This document shows positions 29,310 to 42,360 of a stretch of 64,000 bases of DNA, piece after piece. How positions within the stretch are numbered: the first letter of the stretch is position 1; every line of letters begins with the position of its first letter. The notes below the pieces were generated by a model, which worked only from the letters and a program-made list of their open reading frames with translations, was not told the origin of the DNA and ran no database searches. This stretch comes from Rhodopila globiformis (lineage in GTDB: Bacteria > Pseudomonadota > Alphaproteobacteria > Acetobacterales > Acetobacteraceae): NCBI RefSeq assembly GCF_002937115.1, contig NZ_NHRY01000269.1, positions 1 through 64,000 of the forward strand, given 5' to 3'. The position numbers and the translations under genes were made by a program.

Positions 29310-30083
29310 ATGTCGGAAGCTGCACAATTACGAGATGTAAAACTTGGCGTCGTACGAGAGAACTGGACCAACGCCGGTCCGGTGGTGTCGCAAATGCCGG
29401 ATCAGGACCTGAACCTGCTACGCGAACGCGCCGCGGCGACGATTGCCGATCCCAGTGCGCTTGGCTTGTGGGGATTTGCCACCGGCACCTGGATGGCGGC
29501 GACTGTGCTCGGCGGATTTGTCGAGCCTTTGGCCAGTTGGTCGCTGGCCCCGACCGTCATCCTGTTTGCCGGCATCGCCCAGTTCATAGCCGGACTGTAT
29601 GCCTTCCGGCGGACCAATGCCCTGCACGCGACGGCTTTTACCTGCTTTGGCGCCTTCAATACGGTAGCGGGCATTATGCTGACGATCCCGTTCCAGGCGA
29701 CCAGGGGGATGACGCCGGGATACCACTTGATGCTGGGATTCCTGCTTGAATCGTTCGCGTTCATCTCGCTGGCACTGATGGTCGGCGCCTTGCGGCGGAA
29801 CGCCGTGCTGACGCTTTTGCTGGGCGCGCTGTTCATCGGCTACTGCCTGACCGGCATCGGTCAGTTCACGATCGGCAACGCTGCGGCCATCGTGCCGGCC
29901 GCCACTGCGAGCGGAGCCCATGCCGGGGCCGCCGGCGCGGCGGGGAACGGGCCTGGCGTGATCGCCGGCATCGGCGGCGGCTTCCTGTGGCTCTCGGCGA
30001 TATGCGCTTACTACCTGGGCGCAGCACTGCTGGTGAACAGCACCTGGCACCGCCGGGTCCTTCCCATCATGGGCGAGCCGTAA
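29310..30083 (+). CDS. GPR1/FUN34/YaaH (SatP) family acetate/succinate transporter
   Basis: The product is 257 residues, with a strong AAAGGAG eight bases before the ATG. Six transmembrane segments can be seen, starting at ADPSALGLWGFATGTW, a variant of the NPAPLGL signature of this family. FAGIAQFIAGLYAFRR and ATAFTCFGAFNTVAGIML are further hallmarks. Members take up acetate or succinate. A soluble N-terminal tail of about 50 residues and a Gly/Ala-rich loop (GAHAGAAGAAGNG) before the last segment are longer than in SatP. Confidence 0.85.
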   Translation: MSEAAQLRDVKLGVVRENWTNAGPVVSQMPDQDLNLLRERAAATIADPSALGLWGFATGTWMAATVLGGFVEPLASWSLAPTVILFAGIAQFIAGLYAFRRTNALHATAFTCFGAFNTVAGIMLTIPFQATRGMTPGYHLMLGFLLESFAFISLALMVGALRRNAVLTLLLGALFIGYCLTGIGQFTIGNAAAIVPAATASGAHAGAAGAAGNGPGVIAGIGGGFLWLSAICAYYLGAALLVNSTWHRRVLPIMGEP

Positions 30084-30782
30084 TGGGTGCGCTCTCCATG
30101 GCCGAGGCGGCAACGCGCGGCCATGGATGAGAGCCTGTTCCTGTCGGGCTGAGACTGGCTTTGCCTTCCCGGGAAGAAGTGTACCGGGGAGGCATCACCA
30201 CGAGTCCCGCAACAGTGCGAATTCGGCATGATCGCCGGCAAGCCGTGATGCCGGACATTATCTTCATGAACAGCGCGCGCCGGCGCGTTCTCCTATGAAA
30301 ATGCGGTCCCGCAGGTGCCGGTCGTCTCTCCATCGTCATGGCCGGGCGTGTCCCTACGCAATGCACACATCCTGGAAAAGAGTGGGAAATGACCGTAAAA
30401 TCAAGTGCTTGCCTGGGCGCCAAGAGCGTTCCACCATCGTCATGGCCCGGCTTGTCCGGGCCACCTATTCCAGCACTTGTGCCGCGACAGGTGGCCCGGA
30501 CAAGCCGGGCCATGACGAAAGGGAAACGCAGCGGCGGACCGTTTCCGAGATGTGTGCATCCCGTAGGGACACGCCCGGCCATGACGGAGAGGCAAAGGCT
30601 CGCCCAATTTTCGGTCATCGCGGTGCCGGCGCGCCGGCTGGCCAACTCCCATGGGTTGGAAGCCGGCAGACAATTCCGCGGCTGCAGTCCAGGGCGGTGG
30701 CCGCAGGCTGTATCGGCATGATTTCCATGCTTCTGACTAGCCTGCGACGGGACTCCGGCGTCTGCTGGATCGTGCAGTCGGG
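30084..30782. other. Spacer with composite repeat
   Basis: No gene. Contains the composite repeat at 30334-30586, and otherwise nothing I can name. Confidence 0.5.
30334..30586. repeat. Composite repeat: REP-A arms enclosing REP-B
   Basis: The outer arms are CGTCATGGCCGGGCGTGTCC-CTACGCAATGCACAC and its complement ending at 30586. Inside is a complete REP-B palindrome (30439-30517) flanked by AACGCAGCGGCG and GCAAGCACTTGATTT-type stretches. The same unit occurs in opposite orientation at 39260-39558. Confidence 0.85.
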
Positions 30783-32279
30783 TTACCGCCCCGGCGTCGG
30801 CATGGTGAATTCCGGCCCGCGCCGCATGCCGGCGGTCCAGCGCTGGGTGATCGCCTTGTAGCGGGTGTAGAAGCGCACCCCCTCCGGCCCGTAGATGTGG
30901 TGGTCGCCGAACAACGAGTGCTTCCAGCCGCCGAAACTATGGAACGCCATCGGCACCGGGATCGGCACGTTGATGCCGACCATGCCGATCTGGATGGCCT
31001 GGGTGAAGTCGCGGGCGACGCCGCCGTCGTTGGTGAACAGGGCGACGCCGTTGCCGTATTCGTGGCTGTTGACCAGCCGCGTCGCGGTGGCGACGTCGGG
31101 GGCGCGGACCACCGACAGCACCGGGCCGAAGATCTCGTCCTTGTAGATGCGCATGTCGGGCGTGACGTCGTCGAACAGGCAGCCGCCGAGGAAGAAGCCG
31201 TTCTCGTAGCCTTGCAGCTTCAGGTCGCGGCCGTCGACTACCAGCTTCGCGCCCTCCTTCACGCCGAGGTCGACGTAGCCGCGTACCTTGTTCAGGTGCT
31301 CGCGCGTCACCAGCGGACCCATTTCGGCGTCCGGGTCGGTGCCGGGGGCCACCTTCAGCGCCCGCACGCGCGGGGCCAGCTTCGACATCAGGGCGTCGCC
31401 GGCCGAGCCGACGGTCACCGCCACGGACACCGCCATGCAGCGCTCGCCGGCGGCGCCGTAGGCCGAGCCCATCAGCGCATCGACCGCGTCGTCGATGTCG
31501 GCGTCGGGCATCACCACCAGGTGGTTCTTCGCCCCGCCCAGCGCCTGCACGCGCTTTCCGTGCGAGGTGCCGCCGCGGTAGATCGTCTCGGCGATGGCGG
31601 TGGAGCCGACGAAGCTGATGGCGGCGATGCCGGGATGACTGAGGATGGTTTCAACCGCCTCGCGCCCGCCCTGCACGACGTTGAACACGCCGTCGGGCAG
31701 GCCGGCTTCCTTGAGCAGCTCGGCCAGCCGCAGCGAGACGGACGGGTCCTTCTCGGATGGTTTCAGGATGAAGCAGTTGCCGCAGGCCAGCGCCACCGGG
31801 ATCATCCACAGCGGCACCATGATCGGGAAGTTGAACGGGGTGATGCCGGCGACGACGCCCAGGGGCTGGCGGATCGACCAGGCGTCGATGCCGGTGCCGA
31901 CCTGGTCGGTGAATTCGCCTTTCAGCACGTGGGGGATGCCGCAGGCGAATTCGACGACCTCCAGGCCGCGCTGCACCTCGCCGTCGGCGTCGGACAGGAC
32001 CTTGCCGTGCTCGGCGGTGATGATCTCGGCGAGTTCGCGGCGGTTGCGTTCCAGCAGGTCCTTCAGTTTGAACATGACGCGGGCGCGGCGGAGCGGGGGC
32101 GTGGCGGCCCAGGCGGGCCAGGCTTCGGCGGCGGCGGCGACGGCTTTGTCGACTTCAGAGGCGTTGGCCATGGCGACCTTGCCGGTGACCTCGCCGGCGG
32201 CGGGATTGAAGACGTCGCCGTGGTTGCCGCTGGTGCCTTGGACGTGCTGGCCGGCGATGTAGTGGCCGATTTCGCGCAT
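30783..32279 (-). CDS. mmsA: CoA-acylating methylmalonate-semialdehyde dehydrogenase
   Basis: The product is 498 residues of the aldehyde dehydrogenase superfamily. [33 protein letters not shown] and [12 protein letters not shown] with the catalytic cysteine are diagnostic for MmsA/IolA. It oxidises methylmalonate or malonate semialdehyde to propionyl-CoA or acetyl-CoA in valine, beta-alanine and inositol catabolism. The ATG at 32279 gives the usual HYIAGQ N-terminus. No valine-pathway neighbours are in the window. Confidence 0.93.
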
Positions 32280-32346: not shown

Positions 32347-32811
32347 TCAGGGATCAATCGCCTGCCGGAAACGCGCGATCTCCGACGGCAGCAAGGAGGC
32401 CAGCAGCGCGGCGCTTTCGACCGCTCTGGTCGCCTGCGCATAATCGAAGGCATCGTAGGCATGGGCAGCGATGCTCCGGAAGCGGCGGGTTTCGTCGGCC
32501 GCGCGGGCCGCGTCCCCGCCCAGGATGGCCGGCCGCTTGCCGACGGGATGGGCCGCCCGCGCAATCAAATCGGCATGCCAGCGTGACCCTGTCGGGGCTG
32601 CCTCGCCGTACAGGTCGAGGATGCGAAGCAGTGCAGTCTCCAGGGATGTCTGGCCGGACTGCATGGCGTGCATGAAGCCCATCTCGAACCCATACCGGTC
32701 GATGTCAGGCACGATGCCTGGCAGGCGATCGAACAATCCCTTCGCGCCAGTGAAGTGCCGCACTGCCGCGGCGACGGCCTGGTCAATTTCGAACCAACGG
32801 GCGTCGCTCAT
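32347..32811 (-). CDS. hepT: HepT-like HEPN-domain toxin of a HEPN/MNT pair
   Basis: The product is 154 residues, all helical. [15 protein letters not shown] fits the RX4-6H active-site region of HEPN RNases (R-SIAA-H-Y here). Its ATG overlaps the stop of the upstream nucleotidyltransferase gene (ATGA at 32808-32811). In the characterised HepT-MntA system the nucleotidyltransferase AMPylates a tyrosine next to this motif to silence the RNase; a Tyr is present two residues after the His. This protein is longer than typical HepT (about 115-140). Confidence 0.75.
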
Positions 32812-33158
32812 GCGATCTCCCGGAGATCGGGTGCGATATGATCCAGGAAGGTCCTCCGGCACCAGCGATAGGGCATGAGGTCAGGCTCCAATCCACGGTC
32901 CCAGCAGGCTGTTTCGGCGAAGTTCCATGCCTCGCCCAGCGTGGCCTCCGGGAAATCCAACAACAGATCGACGTCGCTGTCATGCTTCATCGTCCCGCGC
33001 GCGGCGGAGCCGTACAGCAGGAACCGGCCGCCATGCGCCTGGGCATAGGCGGCCAGCACCGGCACGAGCGCTGCCACGGCCGCCTGGCGGCGTGCCGCCT
33101 CGATTGCCTTGTGCTCGGCCAGGGTGACGATCTGCTGCATGAGCGGATTATCCTGCAT
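32808..33158 (-). CDS. mntA: MntA-like nucleotidyltransferase antitoxin
   Basis: The product is 116 residues. The minimal nucleotidyltransferase motif is LLYGSAARGTMKHDSDVDLL, the GS-x10-DxD pattern, followed by a third acidic strand region. It lies immediately upstream of and overlaps the HEPN gene, the arrangement of type VII toxin-antitoxin pairs. In that system the antitoxin transfers AMP to the toxin. ATG at 33158; an in-frame ATG six codons later is possible. Confidence 0.85.
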   Translation of the reverse strand: MQDNPLMQQIVTLAEHKAIEAARRQAAVAALVPVLAAYAQAHGGRFLLYGSAARGTMKHDSDVDLLLDFPEATLGEAWNFAETACWDRGLEPDLMPYRWCRRTFLDHIAPDLREIA

Positions 33159-33351
33159 GTCGCGCTGCGAGGGTAGAGCAGTCTGATGCTGGGGGGCAAA
33201 GGCGGCAGGTTGGGAACTTTCCTTGCACGAAGAATTGCGGAAAAGAGACGTCTATGCGAACGTCCCGCCGCGGTTGAGCGGCGGCTTGATTGATCGCCCG
33301 GCCGTCGGCTGAAGCAAACGACCTGCTGCTTTCTCATCGATGGAGCGAATG

Positions 33352-33630
33352 ATGGCGGATCAGCCGCTGGGGCACGACAAGCCGGGCGCGGACGACATGG
33401 GGTCGTTGCAGGTCCAGGCTCATTGGGACGCCGCCGCCGAGGTCTGGTGGGCAGAGAGCGATGACCTGCCCGGTCTTGCGACCGAGGCGCCATCGTTTCC
33501 GGAGTTGATGACTCACATCAAGTCGCTCGCCCCGACGATCATCCGGGAGAACCTGGGGCGCCGGCCGGATGGCCTGTCCGTCCGGGTGGCCGGCAATGCG
33601 TCGGAGGAAACCTTCAAAATCAATGGCTGA
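33352..33630 (+). CDS. DUF1902-type antitoxin
   Basis: The product is 92 residues. VQAHWDAAAEVWWAESDDLPG LATEA-type sequence is the HicB-like partial RNase H fold of DUF1902 (split here for length). It probably pairs with the HicA protein whose gene overlaps its end. The ATG at 33352 is favoured by GGAG at 33342-33345; ATGs at 33340 and 33349 are alternatives. The antitoxin gene comes first, allowing it to be made in excess. Confidence 0.8.
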   Translation: MADQPLGHDKPGADDMGSLQVQAHWDAAAEVWWAESDDLPGLATEAPSFPELMTHIKSLAPTIIRENLGRRPDGLSVRVAGNASEETFKING

Positions 33631-33817
33631 CTTCGACCGCGATCTGCGCAGGATCCTGCGCGATCATGGCTGCGAGTACCGGCGGCCGGCCGATGGCAGT
33701 CATGAATGGTGGTACAGTCCCATCACGAACCGTGGCTTCGCTGTCCCGCTGCATATCAAGAGCCGACACACCGCCAATGCAGTCCTGAAACAGGCCGGCA
33801 TCGAGAAGAAGTTCTGA
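33623..33817 (+). CDS. hicA: HicA-family mRNA interferase toxin
   Basis: The product is 64 residues. The double-stranded RNA-binding-like HicA fold is seen in LRRILRDHGCEYRR, GSHEWWYSP with the catalytic histidine, and RHTANAVLKQAGI. HicA toxins cleave mRNA until bound by the antitoxin. The start overlaps the last eight bases of the DUF1902 gene. The length is typical of HicA. Confidence 0.85.
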   Translation: MADFDRDLRRILRDHGCEYRRPADGSHEWWYSPITNRGFAVPLHIKSRHTANAVLKQAGIEKKF

Positions 33818-33898: not shown

Positions 33899-34953
33899 TT
33901 ACGCTGGATCGAGCAGCGTATCGAGGTGATCGTGCCGCTCGTTCATGCGGGATGCGGCGATCTGTTCGATTTCACCGTCGGTGAGGTCCGCCGTCTGGAG
34001 CCGGCGGCGCATGGCCTTGAGCTTCAGCAGCGCTTCATACTCGTGCGGCGAGACGAAATAGCCGGCGAGGGCGCCGAGCACCGGCTGGTCGCAGGCGATG
34101 ACGCCGGCCATGACGAGGTTCAGCGGGTTGCTGAAGCGCGGCTCCGCCAGCGCCTGGTCGAGCGCGGCATCCTCACCCGCCACCGGCAGCACCGCCGGCT
34201 CGCCCGCCGTGCCGCGCAGTGTCCAGGCCGCCGCCCGCGCCGCCAGCAGCAGGGCGTGCCGCTCGGCCGGGTCGCCCAGGCCCAGCAGCCGGACGGGCGG
34301 GTTCTGCCAGACCACCTCGGCACGGCCCCGGCCGCTGTTCAGGCCGGGGCGGGTCAGTTCCGGCCACCAGCCGAAATCCGCCGGCGCCTCGCGGTCGAGC
34401 AGCAGGAAGCGCAGCTTCTGCGGCTGAAGCGTCGGCACCAGCGCATCCAGCCAGCGCGCCAGCTCCCGCTATGCCGTCGCCGCGTAATCCACCACCAGCA
34501 GCGTCGGCCGATCCCAGGTAAAGGCGCGGGTCGCCAGGGTATCGACGATCGGCCGCAGGTCGGAGGGGTGAACAAAGGCCGCGAGCCAATCGCCCGAGCC
34601 GTCCGGCGGATCAACCAGGCGGCAGAGTTCCAGCGCCAGCCGTGTCTTGCCGCTGCCGGCCTCGCCAATCAGCGCATGGACGGACAGATCGGCCGGGTCG
34701 TCCAGCCAGCCGCGCAATTCCGCCAGCATAGCGGCGCGGCCGAGCAGCGGCAGCACCCCGGCCGTCGGGGCAAACATGTCCAGTTCGCGCGGCAGAGCGC
34801 CCGGGCGCGGCGGCGGTCGGGCACCGGCACCTGGCGGCATTCCAGCGCCAGCCGCACGCCGGTGTCGCCGAACGTCGCGGTGATGCTGTTGCCGTCGCCG
34901 GTGACGACGACGCTGTGCCGGATGTCCCGGGCGTGGACCGACTGATCGCTCAC
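33899..34953 (-). pseudogene. Disrupted STAND-type NTPase
   Basis: Read leftward from a GTG at 34953, the protein begins SDQSVHARDIRHSVVVTGDG and then RLALECRQVPVPDRRR. At about 34815 the frame shifts by one base, continuing with GALPRELDMFAPTAG, LPLLGRAAMLAELRGWLDD, Walker A in GEAGSGKTRLALELC and Walker B in LLVVDYAATA. There an in-frame TAG stops it at about 34469. The remainder, from LARWLDALVPTLQPQKLRF to LDTLLDPA at 33899, stays open. STAND NTPases are signalling or defence ATPases. Frameshift plus nonsense codon indicate decay. No effector domain is recognised. Confidence 0.75.
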
Positions 34954-35084: not shown

Positions 35085-35092
35085 TAAAGGAG
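35085..35092 (+). promoter_or_regulatory. Shine-Dalgarno sequence of the selenoprotein gene
   Basis: TAAAGGAG stands nine bases before the ATG at 35102. It is one of the strongest ribosome-binding sites in the window and supports translation from a start that leads straight to the in-frame UGA. Confidence 0.8.
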
Positions 35093-35101
35093 CGGAACCG
35101 C

Positions 35102-35320
35102 ATGCAGGTCGAAATCGAATACTGCGGTATGTGAGGCTACGAACCGCGCGCCCGCCAGGCGCGGGACCTGATCCTGAAGACACACCCCTCGGCCCGGGTC
35201 GACCTGAAACGATCCAGCGGCGGCGTCTTCGAGATCACGGTGGATGGACGACTGGCCTACTCGAAGAAGGCCACCGGCCAGTTCCCGACAGACGAGCAGG
35301 TGCAGAGCACCCTCGGCTGA
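35102..35320 (+). CDS. Selenoprotein W-like Rdx protein with in-frame UGA (CxxU)
   Basis: Read through the TGA at 35132-35134 as selenocysteine, the product is 72 residues: MQVEIEYCGM-Sec-GYEPRARQA, then DLILKTHPSARVDLKRSSGG, FEITVDGRLAYSKKATG and a C-terminal TDEQVQSTLG. This matches the Rdx/SelW thioredoxin-like fold: the YCGxUGY redox motif at the end of strand 1, a helix with RA-x-x-x-x-L, and the GxFEV-V-G-L-SKK block present in animal SelW. The UGA stands exactly where family members have Sec or Cys. A candidate SECIS hairpin follows. Reading stops after 10 residues if UGA is not decoded. selA/selB/selC are not in the window. Function of the family: thiol/selenol redox, poorly defined. 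Confidence 0.82.
35144..35165 (+). promoter_or_regulatory. Candidate bacterial SECIS hairpin
   Basis: CGCGCC (35147-35152) pairs with GGCGCG (35158-35163) around the loop CGCCA. Two more C-G pairs below (35144-35145 with 35164-35165) are separated by a bulged G. The apical G is 20 nt past the UGA, within the distance reported for bacterial SECIS elements. Base pairing is seen; SelB binding is inference. Confidence 0.5.
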
Positions 35321-35833: not shown

Positions 35834-36172
35834 ATGCCGACGACACTGCAGGACCGAGAGCAGGCCTTCGAGGCGAAATTCGCCCACGACGAGGAAGTTC
35901 GTTTCCTCACCCGGGCGCGCCGCGACAAGCTGTTCGCGCACTGGGCGGCCACGGAACTCAGGCTGTCCGAGGCGGACACCAATGCCCTGGTCAAGGCGGT
36001 CATCGCCATTCCCGATGGCCCGGGGCACGAGCAGGCCCTGCTGCGCCATGTCGGCGACCGCCTGCGCGGCCGTTCCGCCGGGTCCGAGGCATCGCTCGCC
36101 GCGGCGCTGGGCCGGTGCATGGAACAGGCGAAGCTGCTTGAGGCGACGGCGGATCGTTCCGGGACGGCGTGA
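35834..36172 (+). CDS. ATPase inhibitor subunit zeta (DUF1476)
   Basis: The product is 112 residues. LQDREQAFEAKFAHDEEVRF and RARRDKLFAHWAATELRLSE are the DUF1476 signature. In Paracoccus this family is the zeta subunit, which inserts its N-terminus into F1 and blocks ATP hydrolysis. The protein aligns along its whole length with that family. It lies 670 bases from a second, N-type F1Fo-ATPase operon in convergent orientation. Whether it inhibits that enzyme, the main ATP synthase or both is open. Confidence 0.85.
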   Translation: MPTTLQDREQAFEAKFAHDEEVRFLTRARRDKLFAHWAATELRLSEADTNALVKAVIAIPDGPGHEQALLRHVGDRLRGRSAGSEASLAAALGRCMEQAKLLEATADRSGTA

Positions 36173-36329
36173 TCGTGGCGGTGATTCGGATCGTGTCGTC
36201 CGGGAAGGGTTACGTGCCGATGGGGACGGGACTGGAAGCGTGTTTGCCTCCGTAGTTTTCAACACGGAGTTAGCCAGCTGGCGGCCCCGGCACCGCGATG
36301 GCTGAAAATGACGGCGGCCGTTGCCTTCC

Positions 36330-36408
36330 CGTCATGGCCGGGCGTGTCCCGGCCATCTACCCCCAGCCGTCGAAGCGCAGATGGCCGGGATACGCCCGGC
36401 CATGACGA
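36330..36408. repeat. REP-A palindrome
   Basis: CGTCATGGCCGGGCGTGTCC and the near-perfect complement ending CCATGACG. The loop holds the variable CTACCCCCAGCCGTCGAAGC. Confidence 0.85.
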
Positions 36409-36527
36409 TAGAGAGACGATCGGCGCCTGCGAGACCGCATTTTCATAGGAGAAAGGTCATGTCGCGCTGCGCGCGAAGCGTATGAAATGCCGGAGGGGCC
36501 AATGGGACGACCCGCGCTGCTGCTCCC

Positions 36528-36580
36528 CTGCAACCTTCGTGGCCCTCCGTGTTCCTTCGTACCCTCCGTGTTGAAATTCG
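36528..36580. repeat. Hairpin-element right arm
   Basis: CCTTCGTGGCCCTCCGTGTT followed by CCTTCGTACCCTCCGTGTTG and AAA matches the right arm at 18230-18279. The left partner arm (TTTTCAACACGGAG at 36257-36270) is cut short, with a REP-A copy lying between. Confidence 0.7.
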
Positions 36581-36845
36581 ACCGGTGCAACAGGCACTGG
36601 CGGAAACCAGGACGTACCAGGATCGATCCCATCCTGGCTGCCTCATCATGCCAGCCGACCCCAAGCCTGGCCGTTGCAGAGTCGTCAGGCACCCGGGCCA
36701 GGCCGGACATGACGCGATGCAAACGACCGTGCCGCTGGCCCCGCCGTCGTCAGTCTCTACTGCTGTAGCGCCGACGTGGCCGCCGCTGGCCGCCAACATT
36801 CATTCTCAGCCGCAAATGGCATATCCCCCGAACCAGCCCCGGCCG

Positions 36846-37694
36846 TCACGCCGATCGGCGGGCGCCCGCGCTGCTGGCGAGTTCGACCACCTCGGCGGTG
36901 ATCTCCTCCTGGCGGATCTGCCGCTCCAGCACCTGCAGGTCCGTCAGCATCGTCTCCAGGTTGCCTTTCGCCCCCAGCATGGTGGCGACCCGGGCTTCGT
37001 TCTCGGCGGCGAACGCGGTCAGCGCCGCCTCGCACAGCTCCGCGAAGACGTATTCCTCGGCCAGCCGCGCCAGCAGCCGGGCCGGGGGCAGGGTGGTCAG
37101 CGGCGCCTGGCCGGAGGCTTTCACGGCGAAGCGGCGGAAATCGAACGGCAGCAGCGACCGCCGCTCGGCCGCCACCCCGCCGGCGGCGGACCAGATGGGC
37201 ACCATGACATCGACGCGCGGTCCAGGCCGATCGGCCAGCCAGGCGTAGAGCGCATCGGCGATGCGGCCGGCCAGCACCGCCACCAGGTTCGCGTGCGGCA
37301 CCATCGGCGCGTGCCAGAACAGGCGCAGGCGCCGCTCGACCGCCAGCCCGCCGCCGCGCGAGCCAATCAGGAACAGGTCCTGCGAGTTCGCGGTCACCCG
37401 CGCCGCCTCCAGCATGCGGTCGCTGAAGGCGCCGGCGAAGCCCTGCTCGGCGCAGAACAGGATCAGCGCCCGCCGCCCGGCGCGGATGGTCGTCGCGTCA
37501 TGGTTGTCCGGCAGCAGCGGCAGCGCCTGGCCGATGGCGCGGCCAATGATTGCCGCATGTGCCCTGACGCCCTGCAGCAACGCATGCGCCTGCTGCACGC
37601 GGCTGGCGGAAATGCCGCGCATCGCCGTCACCACGGCGTCGAGCTGCTGCACGCTGCGGATCCGCCGGGTGGTTTCGGCCAGGCGCTCGGTCAT
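36846..37694 (-). CDS. atpG: N-type F1Fo-ATPase subunit gamma
   Basis: The product is 282 residues. The N-terminal [23 protein letters not shown] and C-terminal [18 protein letters not shown] helices form the antiparallel coiled coil of the rotor shaft. The middle Rossmann-like part is diverged, as in N-ATPases. It is the last gene of the operon; its ATG overlaps the atpA stop (ATGA at 37691-37694). Confidence 0.88.
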
Positions 37695-39244
37695 GCGGCA
37701 TCACCCGCATACCGCTGCGCCAGCGCCCGCACCGCGGCGGCCAGGGCGGCGGTCTGCTCCGCGGTCAGGTCGCCGGTAGCATCCAGCCGTCGCGCGATTG
37801 CGTCGGCGTGCTGGTCCAGCCACGCCGGCAGCGCCGCCCGGAACTCGTTGATCCGGGCGGGCGGCACGGCGTCCAGCATACCCTCGCGCAGCGCCGTCGC
37901 CAGCGCCACCTCGTCGCACAGCCGCAGCGGCCGGTACTGCGGCTGCGACAGCAGCGCGCGCAGCGTGGCGCCGCGGGCGAGCTGCGCCTGCACCCGCGCA
38001 TCCGGCACGCCGCCGAAGCGTGAGAACATCTCCAGCTCCAGGAACTGCGCATAATCCAGCCGCATCGTGCCGGTGGCGGCGCGCAGCGCCGGCGCCTGGG
38101 TCTTGCCGCCGACACGGCTGACGCTGGTGCCGATGTCGATCGCCGGCTTCTGCCCCTCCTGGAACAGCCGCGCGCTCATCACCAGCTGGCCGTCGGTGAT
38201 CGAGATCAGGTTGGTCGGGATATAGGCGCTCAGGTTCCCCGCATCGGTCTCGGCGATCGGCAGCGCGGTCAGCGATCCGCCCCCCTTCTCCGGCGACAGC
38301 TTCGCCGCGCGCTCCAGCAGGCGGGCGTGCAGGTAGAATACGTCGGCGGGGTAAGCCTCGCGGCCCGGCGGCTGGCGGGTCAGCAGGGCGATCTCGCGAT
38401 GCGTCGCGGCGTGCTTGCTCAGGTCGTCGATCACCACCAACGTGTGCCGGCCCTGGTCGCGAAAGTGCTCGGCCAGCGTCATGCCGGCGAACGGGGCGAT
38501 CCATTGCAGCCCCGGCGTGGCGGTGGCGGCGGCCACGACGAAGATGCAGCGCCCGGGCGCGCCGTGCCGGCGGATGGCGTCGATGATCCGTGCCACGGTC
38601 GAGGACTTCTGCCCGACCGCGACATAGACGCAGATGATGTCGGAGCCGCGCTGGTTGATCACGGTATCGACGGCGATGGCGGTTTTGCCGGTGCCGCGGT
38701 CGCCAATGATCAGCTCCCGCTGGCCGCGACCGAGCGCGAACAGCCCGTCGATCGTCAGGATCCCGGTCTGCACCGGCTGCGTCACCAAATCCCGCTCGAC
38801 GATCGCCGGCGCCGGCTGCTCAATCGGCTGGTGCGCCGCGGGGTCAATCGGCGCGCCGCCGTCCAGCGGGCGGCCGAGCGGATCGACCACCCGGCCGAGG
38901 AAGCCCGGCCCGACCGGCACGCGCACCACGTCGCCGGTGCCGTGCACCGTGTCGCCGGCCTCGATCGCCCCGGCATCGTCCAGCAGCACGCAGCCGATGC
39001 GGTCGCGGTCCAGGGTCTGGGCGAAGCCGAGCTGGCCGCGCTGGAACCGCAGCACCTCGTCCAGCCGCGCCGAGGGCAAGCCGGACACCATCGCAATGCC
39101 GTCGCCGAGGCTCTCGACGCGGCCCAGTTCCTCGATCGAGGGGCCCAGCGCCGCCGCCGCTACCCGGCCGGCGGCGCGGTCGAGCCAGGGCGAACCGCCA
39201 CAAATGCCGGAACAGGCCGAGACAGGCGATGGGTCTGGCGCCAC
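37691..39244 (-). CDS. atpA: N-type F1Fo-ATPase subunit alpha
   Basis: The product is about 517 residues. [20 protein letters not shown] is the P-loop region, and [15 protein letters not shown] follows. SITDGQLVM and [16 protein letters not shown] (with the arginine finger region) are alpha-subunit hallmarks. The true start is uncertain because a composite repeat lies immediately upstream. A GTG at 39244 has GGAGAGAG ten bases before it, and that sequence is the flank of the REP repeat; an ATG at 39265 lies inside the palindrome. Alpha-conserved sequence starts at about residue 18 ([10 protein letters not shown]). Confidence 0.9.
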
Positions 39245-39259
39245 GGGGCGTTCTCTCTC

Positions 39260-39558
39260 CGTCATGGCCGGGCGTGTCCCGGCCATCTGCGCTTCGACGG
39301 CGAGGGGTGGATGGCCGGGATACGCCCTACGGGATGCACACATCTCGGAAACGGTCCGCCGCTGCGTTTCCCTTTCGTCATGGCCCGGCTCGTGCGGGCC
39401 ACCTGTCGCGGCACAAGTGCTGGAATAGGAGGCCCGGACAAGCCGGGCCATGACGATGGGGGAACGCAGCGGCGCCCAGGCAAGCACTTGATTTCACGGT
39501 CATTTCCGACTCGTTTCCAGGATGTGTGCATTGCGTAGGGATACGCCCGGCCATGACG
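39260..39558. repeat. Composite repeat within the N-ATPase operon (atpF/atpA junction)
   Basis: A REP-A palindrome is followed by the CTACGGGATGCACAC stretch, a full REP-B palindrome (39376-39454), and GCATTGCGTAGGGATACGCCC ending at 39558. It is the inverted copy of 30334-30586 with an additional REP-A half. It fills most of the 365-base gap between atpF and atpA. Confidence 0.88.
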
Positions 39559-39609
39559 GAGAGAGAACGCCCCTGCGCCACGGGGAGACGACCCTGCGCC
39601 ATCACGGCT

Positions 39610-40374
39610 TTAGCCTGACGCGCATGGGACGAGGCTCTGCTCATCCTTCGCCAGTTCCTCGGCAATGCGGTCCAGATCGGCCCGCCAGGTGTTGCTCAGC
39701 CGCGCGTGCGGCCCGCGCAGTTCGACGCCGGCGATCAGCGCGGGGTCACCCACGAAGCGCAGCCGTAAGCTGTCGCCGAGCCGTCGCCGCAGCATCGCCA
39801 CACAGGACGCCTGCGCCGCCTCGTCGAGCGGTGCCGCCGTCGCCACCTCCAGCGTCTCGCCGGTGCCCGTAAGGTTCCCCAGCGTTGCCGCCGGCAGTGT
39901 CGCCAGCCAGGCATCGAGCATGTCCAACAGCGCGGCGGTGGCGGCCTGCGGCGGCAGACGCGCCAGCAGGCGGGCGGCGATGGTGACGGCCAGTTGCCGT
40001 GCCTCGGCCTCCAGCGCGCGGCGGATCCGGGCGCGTTCCTGGTCCAGCGTCGCTTCCGCCGCCTGTTGCGTCCGGGCGGCTTCCTGCCGGGCCTGCGACA
40101 GCAGTTCCGTCCGTTCCGCCTCGGCCGAGGCGTGGGCGTCGGCCAGGATGTGATCACCCTCCGCCGCCAGCGACTTCCGGCGGCTGGCAACGCCCTCCGC
40201 TTCCGAGCGGGCGGCGGCGCGGGCGGCTTCCGCGTCGGCCAGCAGCGCCTCGGCGGCGCGCTTGCGGGCGGCGATGATCGCCATCACCGGGCGGAACAGG
40301 AAGCGCCGCAGCAGCCAGACCAGCACCAGCAGGTTGACCGTCTGCAGCAGCAGCGTGGTCCAGTCGAAGCGCAT
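39610..40374 (-). CDS. atpF: N-type F1Fo-ATPase subunit b with delta-like C-terminus
   Basis: The product is 254 residues. One N-terminal membrane helix (TLLLQTVNLLVLVWLLRRF) is followed by a long charged coiled coil (about 35-150). The C-terminal 90 residues (LLDMLDAWLATLP to VELRGPHARLSNTW) resemble the delta subunit, including GDPALIAGVELR. A separate atpH is absent from the operon, as in N-ATPases. The start overlaps the atpE stop (TGATG). Confidence 0.88.
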   Translation of the reverse strand: MRFDWTTLLLQTVNLLVLVWLLRRFLFRPVMAIIAARKRAAEALLADAEAARAAARSEAEGVASRRKSLAAEGDHILADAHASAEAERTELLSQARQEAARTQQAAEATLDQERARIRRALEAEARQLAVTIAARLLARLPPQAATAALLDMLDAWLATLPAATLGNLTGTGETLEVATAAPLDEAAQASCVAMLRRRLGDSLRLRFVGDPALIAGVELRGPHARLSNTWRADLDRIAEELAKDEQSLVPCASG

Positions 40375-40619
40375 CAGTGCACGAACGGGTTGGCGAACAG
40401 CAGCAACAGGGCGATCACCAGGCAGTAGATCGCCATGGTCTCGATCATCGCCAGGCCGACGAACAGGGTGCGGGAGATAGTGTTCGCCGCCTCCGGCTGC
40501 CTTGCGATCGCGTCCATGGCGGCGGCGACGGCGCGGCCCTCGCCCAGCGCCGGGCCGATGGCGCCGAACGACACCGCCAGGGCGGCGCCCAGGATGCTGG
40601 CGATCTGCAGGGCATTCAT
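40374..40619 (-). CDS. atpE: N-type F1Fo-ATPase subunit c
   Basis: The 81-residue product is a two-helix hairpin with the polar loop ARQPEA (39-44). The ion-binding glutamate is Glu60 in LAMIETMAIYCL, with Thr61 and Tyr65 nearby. A second carboxylate, Glu27 in PALGEGRA, lies in helix 1. Two carboxylates are a feature of N-type c subunits. Thr and Tyr next to Glu60 recall sodium-binding rings, but the ion used cannot be settled from sequence alone. Confidence 0.93.
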   Translation of the reverse strand: MNALQIASILGAALAVSFGAIGPALGEGRAVAAAMDAIARQPEAANTISRTLFVGLAMIETMAIYCLVIALLLLFANPFVH

Positions 40620-41311
40620 GGCGGTTCGGGCTCCTCGTCCGGTTGTGCCTCGTGGCCGCCGAGGGCGCCGGCGATGAACACCATTGCCAGCACGCTGAAG
40701 ATGTACGCCTGCACCGCGCCGGTGAGCAGGTCCAGCGCCATCAGCGGCACCGGCACCAGCAGGCCGAGCAGCGACAGCACGATGCCGATGACGAACACGC
40801 CGCTCATGACGTTGCCGAACAGCCGCACCACCAGCGAGAAGGTCCGCGTCAGCGTCTCGACGATGTTCAGCGGGATCATGACGATCGTCGGCTCGGCGAA
40901 GGTCGCCAGGTAGCCGCGCACGCCGCGGAAGCGGATGCCGAAGTACGTGACGGCGAAGAACACGATCAGGGCGAGCGCGGCGTCGGTTTCCAGGTGCGCC
41001 GTCGGCGGCTCCACGCCTGGCGCCAGGGACGACCAGTTGGCGGTGAAGGTGAACAGGAACAGCGTGCCGATCAGCGGGAGGAAGGGCTCCGGCTCGACGC
41101 GCATGGTGTCGTGGATCTGCTGCCGGATGGCGTCGACCACCAGTTCCAGCGTCGCCTGCGCCAGCGACGGGCGCAGCGCCAGGTGGCGGGTCGTCAGCCA
41201 GAAGCCGCCGGCCAGCAGCAGCATGATCGCCCAGGTCGTCACCACCGGCGTGGTGACGGCGACGGGGCCGAGGTGGAACGCGACGGACAGGGTCAGCGGC
41301 GACCTCGTCAT
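40616..41311 (-). CDS. atpB: N-type F1Fo-ATPase subunit a
   Basis: The product is 231 residues with about five membrane helices. The essential arginine lies in LVVRLFGNVMSG (family form SLxxRLFGN), and the last helix carries GAVQAYIFSVLAMVFI. It is shorter at the N-terminus than standard a subunits, as expected in N-ATPases. It overlaps atpE by four bases (ATGA). Confidence 0.92.
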   Translation of the reverse strand: MTRSPLTLSVAFHLGPVAVTTPVVTTWAIMLLLAGGFWLTTRHLALRPSLAQATLELVVDAIRQQIHDTMRVEPEPFLPLIGTLFLFTFTANWSSLAPGVEPPTAHLETDAALALIVFFAVTYFGIRFRGVRGYLATFAEPTIVMIPLNIVETLTRTFSLVVRLFGNVMSGVFVIGIVLSLLGLLVPVPLMALDLLTGAVQAYIFSVLAMVFIAGALGGHEAQPDEEPEPP

Positions 41312-41840: not shown

Positions 41841-42253
41841 GCGCCGATGTCCGTGGGGCCGTTGGCGCGCAGCGCCTCGATGATGCGGCGGATCGCCTGG
41901 GTGTGCAGCCGCATGGCGGCGACGCGGCCGGCGCGTTCGGCTTCGGCCTCGGCGAGGAAGCGGGCCAGCACCTGGGTTTCCAGGGTTTCCAGGTCGTCGC
42001 CGCGCTGCGCGTCACGAGTGGCGATGGCGATTTCCTTCCCGCCCTGGACACTCAGCACGCCGCGGCGGACGGCGCAGTAGCCGGGCTTGCCGTCGGTATG
42101 GCGCCACAGCACCACGGAGGTCGTCAGCACCGTCAGCATGTCGGCGTGGCCGGGCAGGATGCCGAAGCTGCCGGTCTCGTCCTCGGCCCGCAGGCTGGTG
42201 ATGTCGGCGGAATCGACGACGACGGCGGTGGGGTCGGTGATCAGCAGTCTCAT
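41837..42253 (-). CDS. atpC: N-type F1Fo-ATPase subunit epsilon
   Basis: The product is 138 residues. The N-terminal beta-sandwich has EDETGSFGILPGHADMLTVL, the conserved GxFGILPGH block, and the C-terminal half is helical. In most bacteria this subunit couples rotation and limits hydrolysis. The start at 42253 is separated from the atpD stop by 115 bases filled with a REP-B palindrome; all other upstream-downstream contacts in this part are overlaps. Confidence 0.9.
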   Translation of the reverse strand: MRLLITDPTAVVVDSADITSLRAEDETGSFGILPGHADMLTVLTTSVVLWRHTDGKPGYCAVRRGVLSVQGGKEIAIATRDAQRGDDLETLETQVLARFLAEAEAERAGRVAAMRLHTQAIRRIIEALRANGPTDIGA

Positions 42254-42280
42254 GCCGGGTGTCCGGGGACGTTCCTCCAC

Positions 42281-42360
42281 CGTCATGGCCCGGCTCGTCC
42301 GGGCCACCTGTCGCGGCACACGTGCTGGAATAGGTGGCCCGGACGAGCCGGGCCATAACG
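42281..42360. repeat. REP-B palindrome at the atpD/atpC junction
   Basis: CGTCATGGCCCGGCTCGTCC and the complement ending GGGCCATAACG, around a central GTCGCGGCACACGTGCTGGA. It occupies most of the space between the two genes. Confidence 0.9.

Follow-up and report, generated by a model that had tools for sequence, protein, structure and literature searches.

A probable SelW-like selenoprotein gene with an in-frame UGA in Rhodopila globiformis

Does a short open frame of Rhodopila globiformis, interrupted at its eleventh codon by a TGA, encode a selenoprotein, or is it the remnant of a broken gene? The question arose in a 64,000-nucleotide stretch of contig NZ_NHRY01000269.1 (the window), where a sequence-only reading had proposed an overlooked SelW-like selenoprotein gene. 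The elements on which that proposal was built, namely the frame at 35102-35320, its ribosome site, the TGA at the second redox position, and a stem with an apical G 20 nt after it, are all present in the sequence and are laid out as follows:

35102..35320, plus strand: SelW-like selenoprotein gene of 72 codons and a closing stop, with selenocysteine (Sec) predicted at codon 11.
35085..35092, plus strand: Shine-Dalgarno-like TAAAGGAG, 9 nt before the ATG, read from the sequence.
35132..35134, plus strand: in-frame TGA, predicted Sec at the second CxxU position, based on homologue codons and on selA, selB, selC, and selD in the genome.
35144..35165, plus strand: predicted bacterial SECIS stem-loop, intragenic, with the apical loop CGCCA at 35153-35157 and G at 35154; moderately supported.

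The codon-11 TGA, in the motif C-G-M-U (CGM-UGA-GY), is the sole internal stop of the frame; the closing stop is likewise a TGA, there a true stop. Reading the internal TGA as Sec gives the product MQVEIEYCGMUGYEPRARQARDLILKTHPSARVDLKRSSGGVFEITVDGRLAYSKKATGQFPTDEQVQSTLG. The Rdx domain spans the full length of this product, which matches Pfam Rdx PF10262 over residues 2-69 (72.5 bits, 3.2e-20, cut-off 22.6), TIGR02174 (61.6 bits, cut-off 34.2), and NCBIfam CXXU_selWTH (6.3e-17, above cut-off), and the CxxU/CxxC redox motif lies N-terminally with the UGA at its second position.

One scan of genome contigs yielded 79 homologous loci, 78 of which, read from the match start, cross the Sec site (L055 begins past the site and was left out). 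A TGA stands at exactly the codon-11 position, in a frame that is otherwise open, in 73 of the 78, while the remaining five, all distant (L068, L074, L075, L079, and L080), carry Cys. Among the TGA carriers are, going by their record titles, Acetobacteraceae, Rhodopila, other Alphaproteobacteria, Desulfobulbaceae, Verrucomicrobia, SAR324, Poribacteria, Planctomycetota, and Bacillota. When 30 sequences were aligned, the first Cys (C8), the Sec/Cys site (position 11), and the GVFE..VD block showed little or no variation. The homologue comparison recommended by the sequence-only reading thus shows a site that keeps either TGA or Cys, and random stops downstream are absent.

These data bear directly on whether a Cys-form selW was inactivated here by a nonsense mutation (TGC or TGT to TGA). 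Codon 11 is, after all, a stop in the standard code, and decay occurs nearby, the upstream neighbor being a frame-broken ATPase gene. Against this, homologues from dozens of species carry a TGA at this exact codon, and the codons downstream of it are under purifying selection, with a pN/pS of 0.27-0.41 over codons 12-68 when compared with eight close relatives. The shared TGA and the conserved downstream frame in homologues therefore rule out a chance nonsense mutation, to which we assign a negligible probability.

A selenoprotein gene calls attention to the Sec machinery, and we searched the R. globiformis genome (7.25 Mb, 98.6% complete) for it. All four genes named for this check by the sequence-only reading were found over cut-off: selA (549 bits), selB (420 bits), selD (290 bits), and selC, the tRNA-Sec, which adjoins selA (73 bits; anticodon TCA according to ARAGORN). 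The selD match (L098, G000:C31:21111-21989) is the C-terminal part of one 752-codon open frame, whose N-terminal extension reads as a pyridine-nucleotide oxidoreductase-like domain, apparently a fusion. The genome also holds a formate dehydrogenase alpha subunit (L108, G000:C76:33857-34600) with one in-frame TGA (...ENQARIUHSASV...), which is a candidate second selenoprotein.

In a sample of 200 Acetobacteraceae genomes, 23 carry the TGA form of selW; in a further 23, all that matches is a form lacking the TGA, mostly at an identity of 29-40%. The selA gene exceeds the cut-off in 21 of the 23 TGA-form genomes, in none of the 23 with only the no-TGA form, and in 42 of the 154 with neither (TGA form versus all others, Fisher p 3e-10, with kinship among genomes ignored). 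The two TGA-form genomes that lack selA are both incomplete, at 72% and 82%. No-TGA homologues in the sampled family thus sit in genomes without selA, unlike the TGA form. That the TGA form tracks selA also speaks against the UGA being read as another amino acid, such as Trp or Cys, as does the Cys found at this site in distant homologues, the residue for which Sec usually stands in; we consider such a decoding extremely improbable.

The stem-loop after the UGA consists of 2+6 pairs (35144-35145 with 35164-35165, and 35147-35152 with 35158-35163) closed by a five-base loop. It begins 9 bases past the UGA, and the apical G is the 20th base past it. Taken alone, the R. globiformis sequence does not fold better than dinucleotide shuffles (z -1.0). 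Across 27 Acetobacteraceae-type sequences, a mean of 5.22 of the six inner pairs form, versus 4.60 +/- 0.15 in synonymous-codon shuffles, and the observed values were matched in 0 of 200 shuffles for pairing and 0 of 100 for energy, the mean energy of the real sequences being the lower; these shuffles ignore the relatedness of the 27 sequences, so the excess is overstated. When 67 TGA sequences were tested together, the same stem register was not favored and energy still was, which would fit a stem geometry that shifts between lineages. A G occupies the apical-loop place in 19 of the 27 sequences and is missing in eight; the loop has GC in R. globiformis versus GU in most relatives, with CGUGC or a variant in many Acetobacteraceae. 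An Rfam search, at the gathering score and also at E up to 10, returned no SECIS match. Bacterial SECIS elements are poorly covered in Rfam. Judged from these sequence comparisons, a SECIS stem after the selW UGA is probable.

Taken together, the Rdx and CXXU_selWTH matches, the TGA in 73 of 78 loci, the full set of Sec genes, the co-occurrence with selA, the purifying selection, and the excess stem pairing identify 35102-35320 as selW. We estimate a probability of about 0.95 that this is a functional gene for a 72-residue, Sec-containing SelW-like protein of the Rdx family, with the codon-11 UGA specifying Sec. The sequence-only reading is thereby supported, and neither a genome devoid of Sec machinery nor homologues without a redox residue at the site, the two outcomes it had set against itself, were encountered.

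From these data, we infer the following route in vivo. SelA would make Sec-tRNA(UCA) using selenophosphate supplied by SelD; SelB would deliver the charged tRNA, recruited by the stem-loop that lies just past the UGA within the coding sequence; and the ribosome would decode the codon-11 UGA as Sec. The product would carry C-G-M-U near the N-terminus of a thioredoxin-like fold and is probably a small thiol/selenol oxidoreductase. Its fold is already given by solved relatives, as the Rdx structures of Atu0228 (2fa8), C17orf37 (2ljk), and Selenoprotein W (2npb) have the same domain and can be aligned over nearly the whole length, although in Atu0228 a Cys takes the place of the Sec, unlike the Sec form described here.

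The genomic setting is less ordinary. SelW stands as a single gene, and its surroundings, which also include a DUF2934 gene, comprise:

32347-33158, minus strand, and 33340-33817, plus strand: HepT-like/nucleotidyltransferase pair and DUF1902/HicA pair.
33899-34953, minus strand: the upstream divergent gene, which reads as an AAA/STAND-type ATPase split over several frames.
35834-36172, plus strand: F1-ATPase inhibitor subunit zeta, PF07345.
36846-41311, minus strand: apparent F-ATPase operon (gamma, alpha, B, c, a), beside the zeta inhibitor.

The toxin-antitoxin-type pairs claimed as neighbors are real, and the broken ATPase gene reads as a pseudogene or an assembly error. The zeta inhibitor named in the sequence-only reading belongs to the F1-ATPase, as its inhibitor subunit zeta, and is not the antitoxin of a zeta toxin. 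Dispersed intergenic repeats lie at 30067-30861, 36321-36722, 38327-39665, and 42250-42358 and recur in many stretches; their translations include VMARLVRAT.

No neighbors in common were found between the homologous loci and the window, and when the retrieved loci were compared with the selA region by blastn, L023 was the one locus with selA close to selW. The tblastn matches of the upstream minus-strand frame were discarded, as they fall on selW antisense and are meaningless. The manC neighborhood was tested separately, the clustering of neighboring frames having mixed in shadow frames. Of the 30 closest relatives (L002-L031), 20 have a manC-type gene just upstream of selW on the other strand, and a congeneric genome (L104) likewise has manC beside selW. 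In R. globiformis, manC is on a different contig from selW, no selW was found in the stretch flanking it (L113), and the genome has only one selW copy. Since most close relatives keep the manC adjacency, selW has probably been relocated in this genome, and the claim of an unusual setting holds to the extent that this adjacency is missing. A more tentative proposal, which we hold to be possible and somewhat doubtful, is that within Acetobacteraceae the Sec form relocated by itself, leaving the side of manC for the toxin-antitoxin-rich region seen here. Its displacement from the usual site could also suggest a former selenoprotein gene that kept its frame and fell silent after relocation; given the good ribosome site, the intact frame, the low pN/pS, and the complete Sec machinery, we find this very unlikely and continue to favor a functional gene.

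SelW-like CxxU selenoproteins of bacteria were already reported between 2005 and 2008, and in marine samples they rank with the most abundant selenoproteins (PMC1794560; the Sargasso Sea survey PMC1088965 and the GOS survey PMC2398784); a 2022 review includes Rdx CxxU (PMC9312934). The gene described here shares with them the N-terminal CxxU, the Rdx domain, the UGA-encoded Sec, and the accompanying Sec trait, and differs in lineage and genomic place only. In C. jejuni, an unannotated selW is translated through its UGA, as seen by Ribo-seq and peptides (PMC11955535). Campylobacter SelW (CJnc60; NF041051 SelTWH_Campy) is of similar length and its model gives the best NCBIfam score, but it belongs to a different phylum, and our protein stays below the cut-off of this equivalog model (79.4 versus 88 bits). 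The family has thus been known in bacteria since the mid-2000s, and 35102-35320 is a correct, not an unusual, find; "overlooked" applies insofar as default gene callers stop at the UGA.

A 2006 survey credited the Sec users among Alphaproteobacteria with FdhA and no other selenoprotein (PMC1794560). SelW occurs here in many Acetobacteraceae and in other Alphaproteobacteria, a distribution that exceeds the picture of that survey, in a comparison that took in part of the later ones. Our analysis points to three implications:

(i) Standard gene calling would cut short or miss a selenoprotein gene such as this one, which a reading of the raw sequence is able to recover.

(ii) Sec-form SelW extends to many Acetobacteraceae and, in the sampled genomes, occurs almost only alongside selA.

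(iii) If the single-gene move is true, selW with its internal SECIS would spread without the Sec machinery moving along, between genomes already equipped with that machinery.
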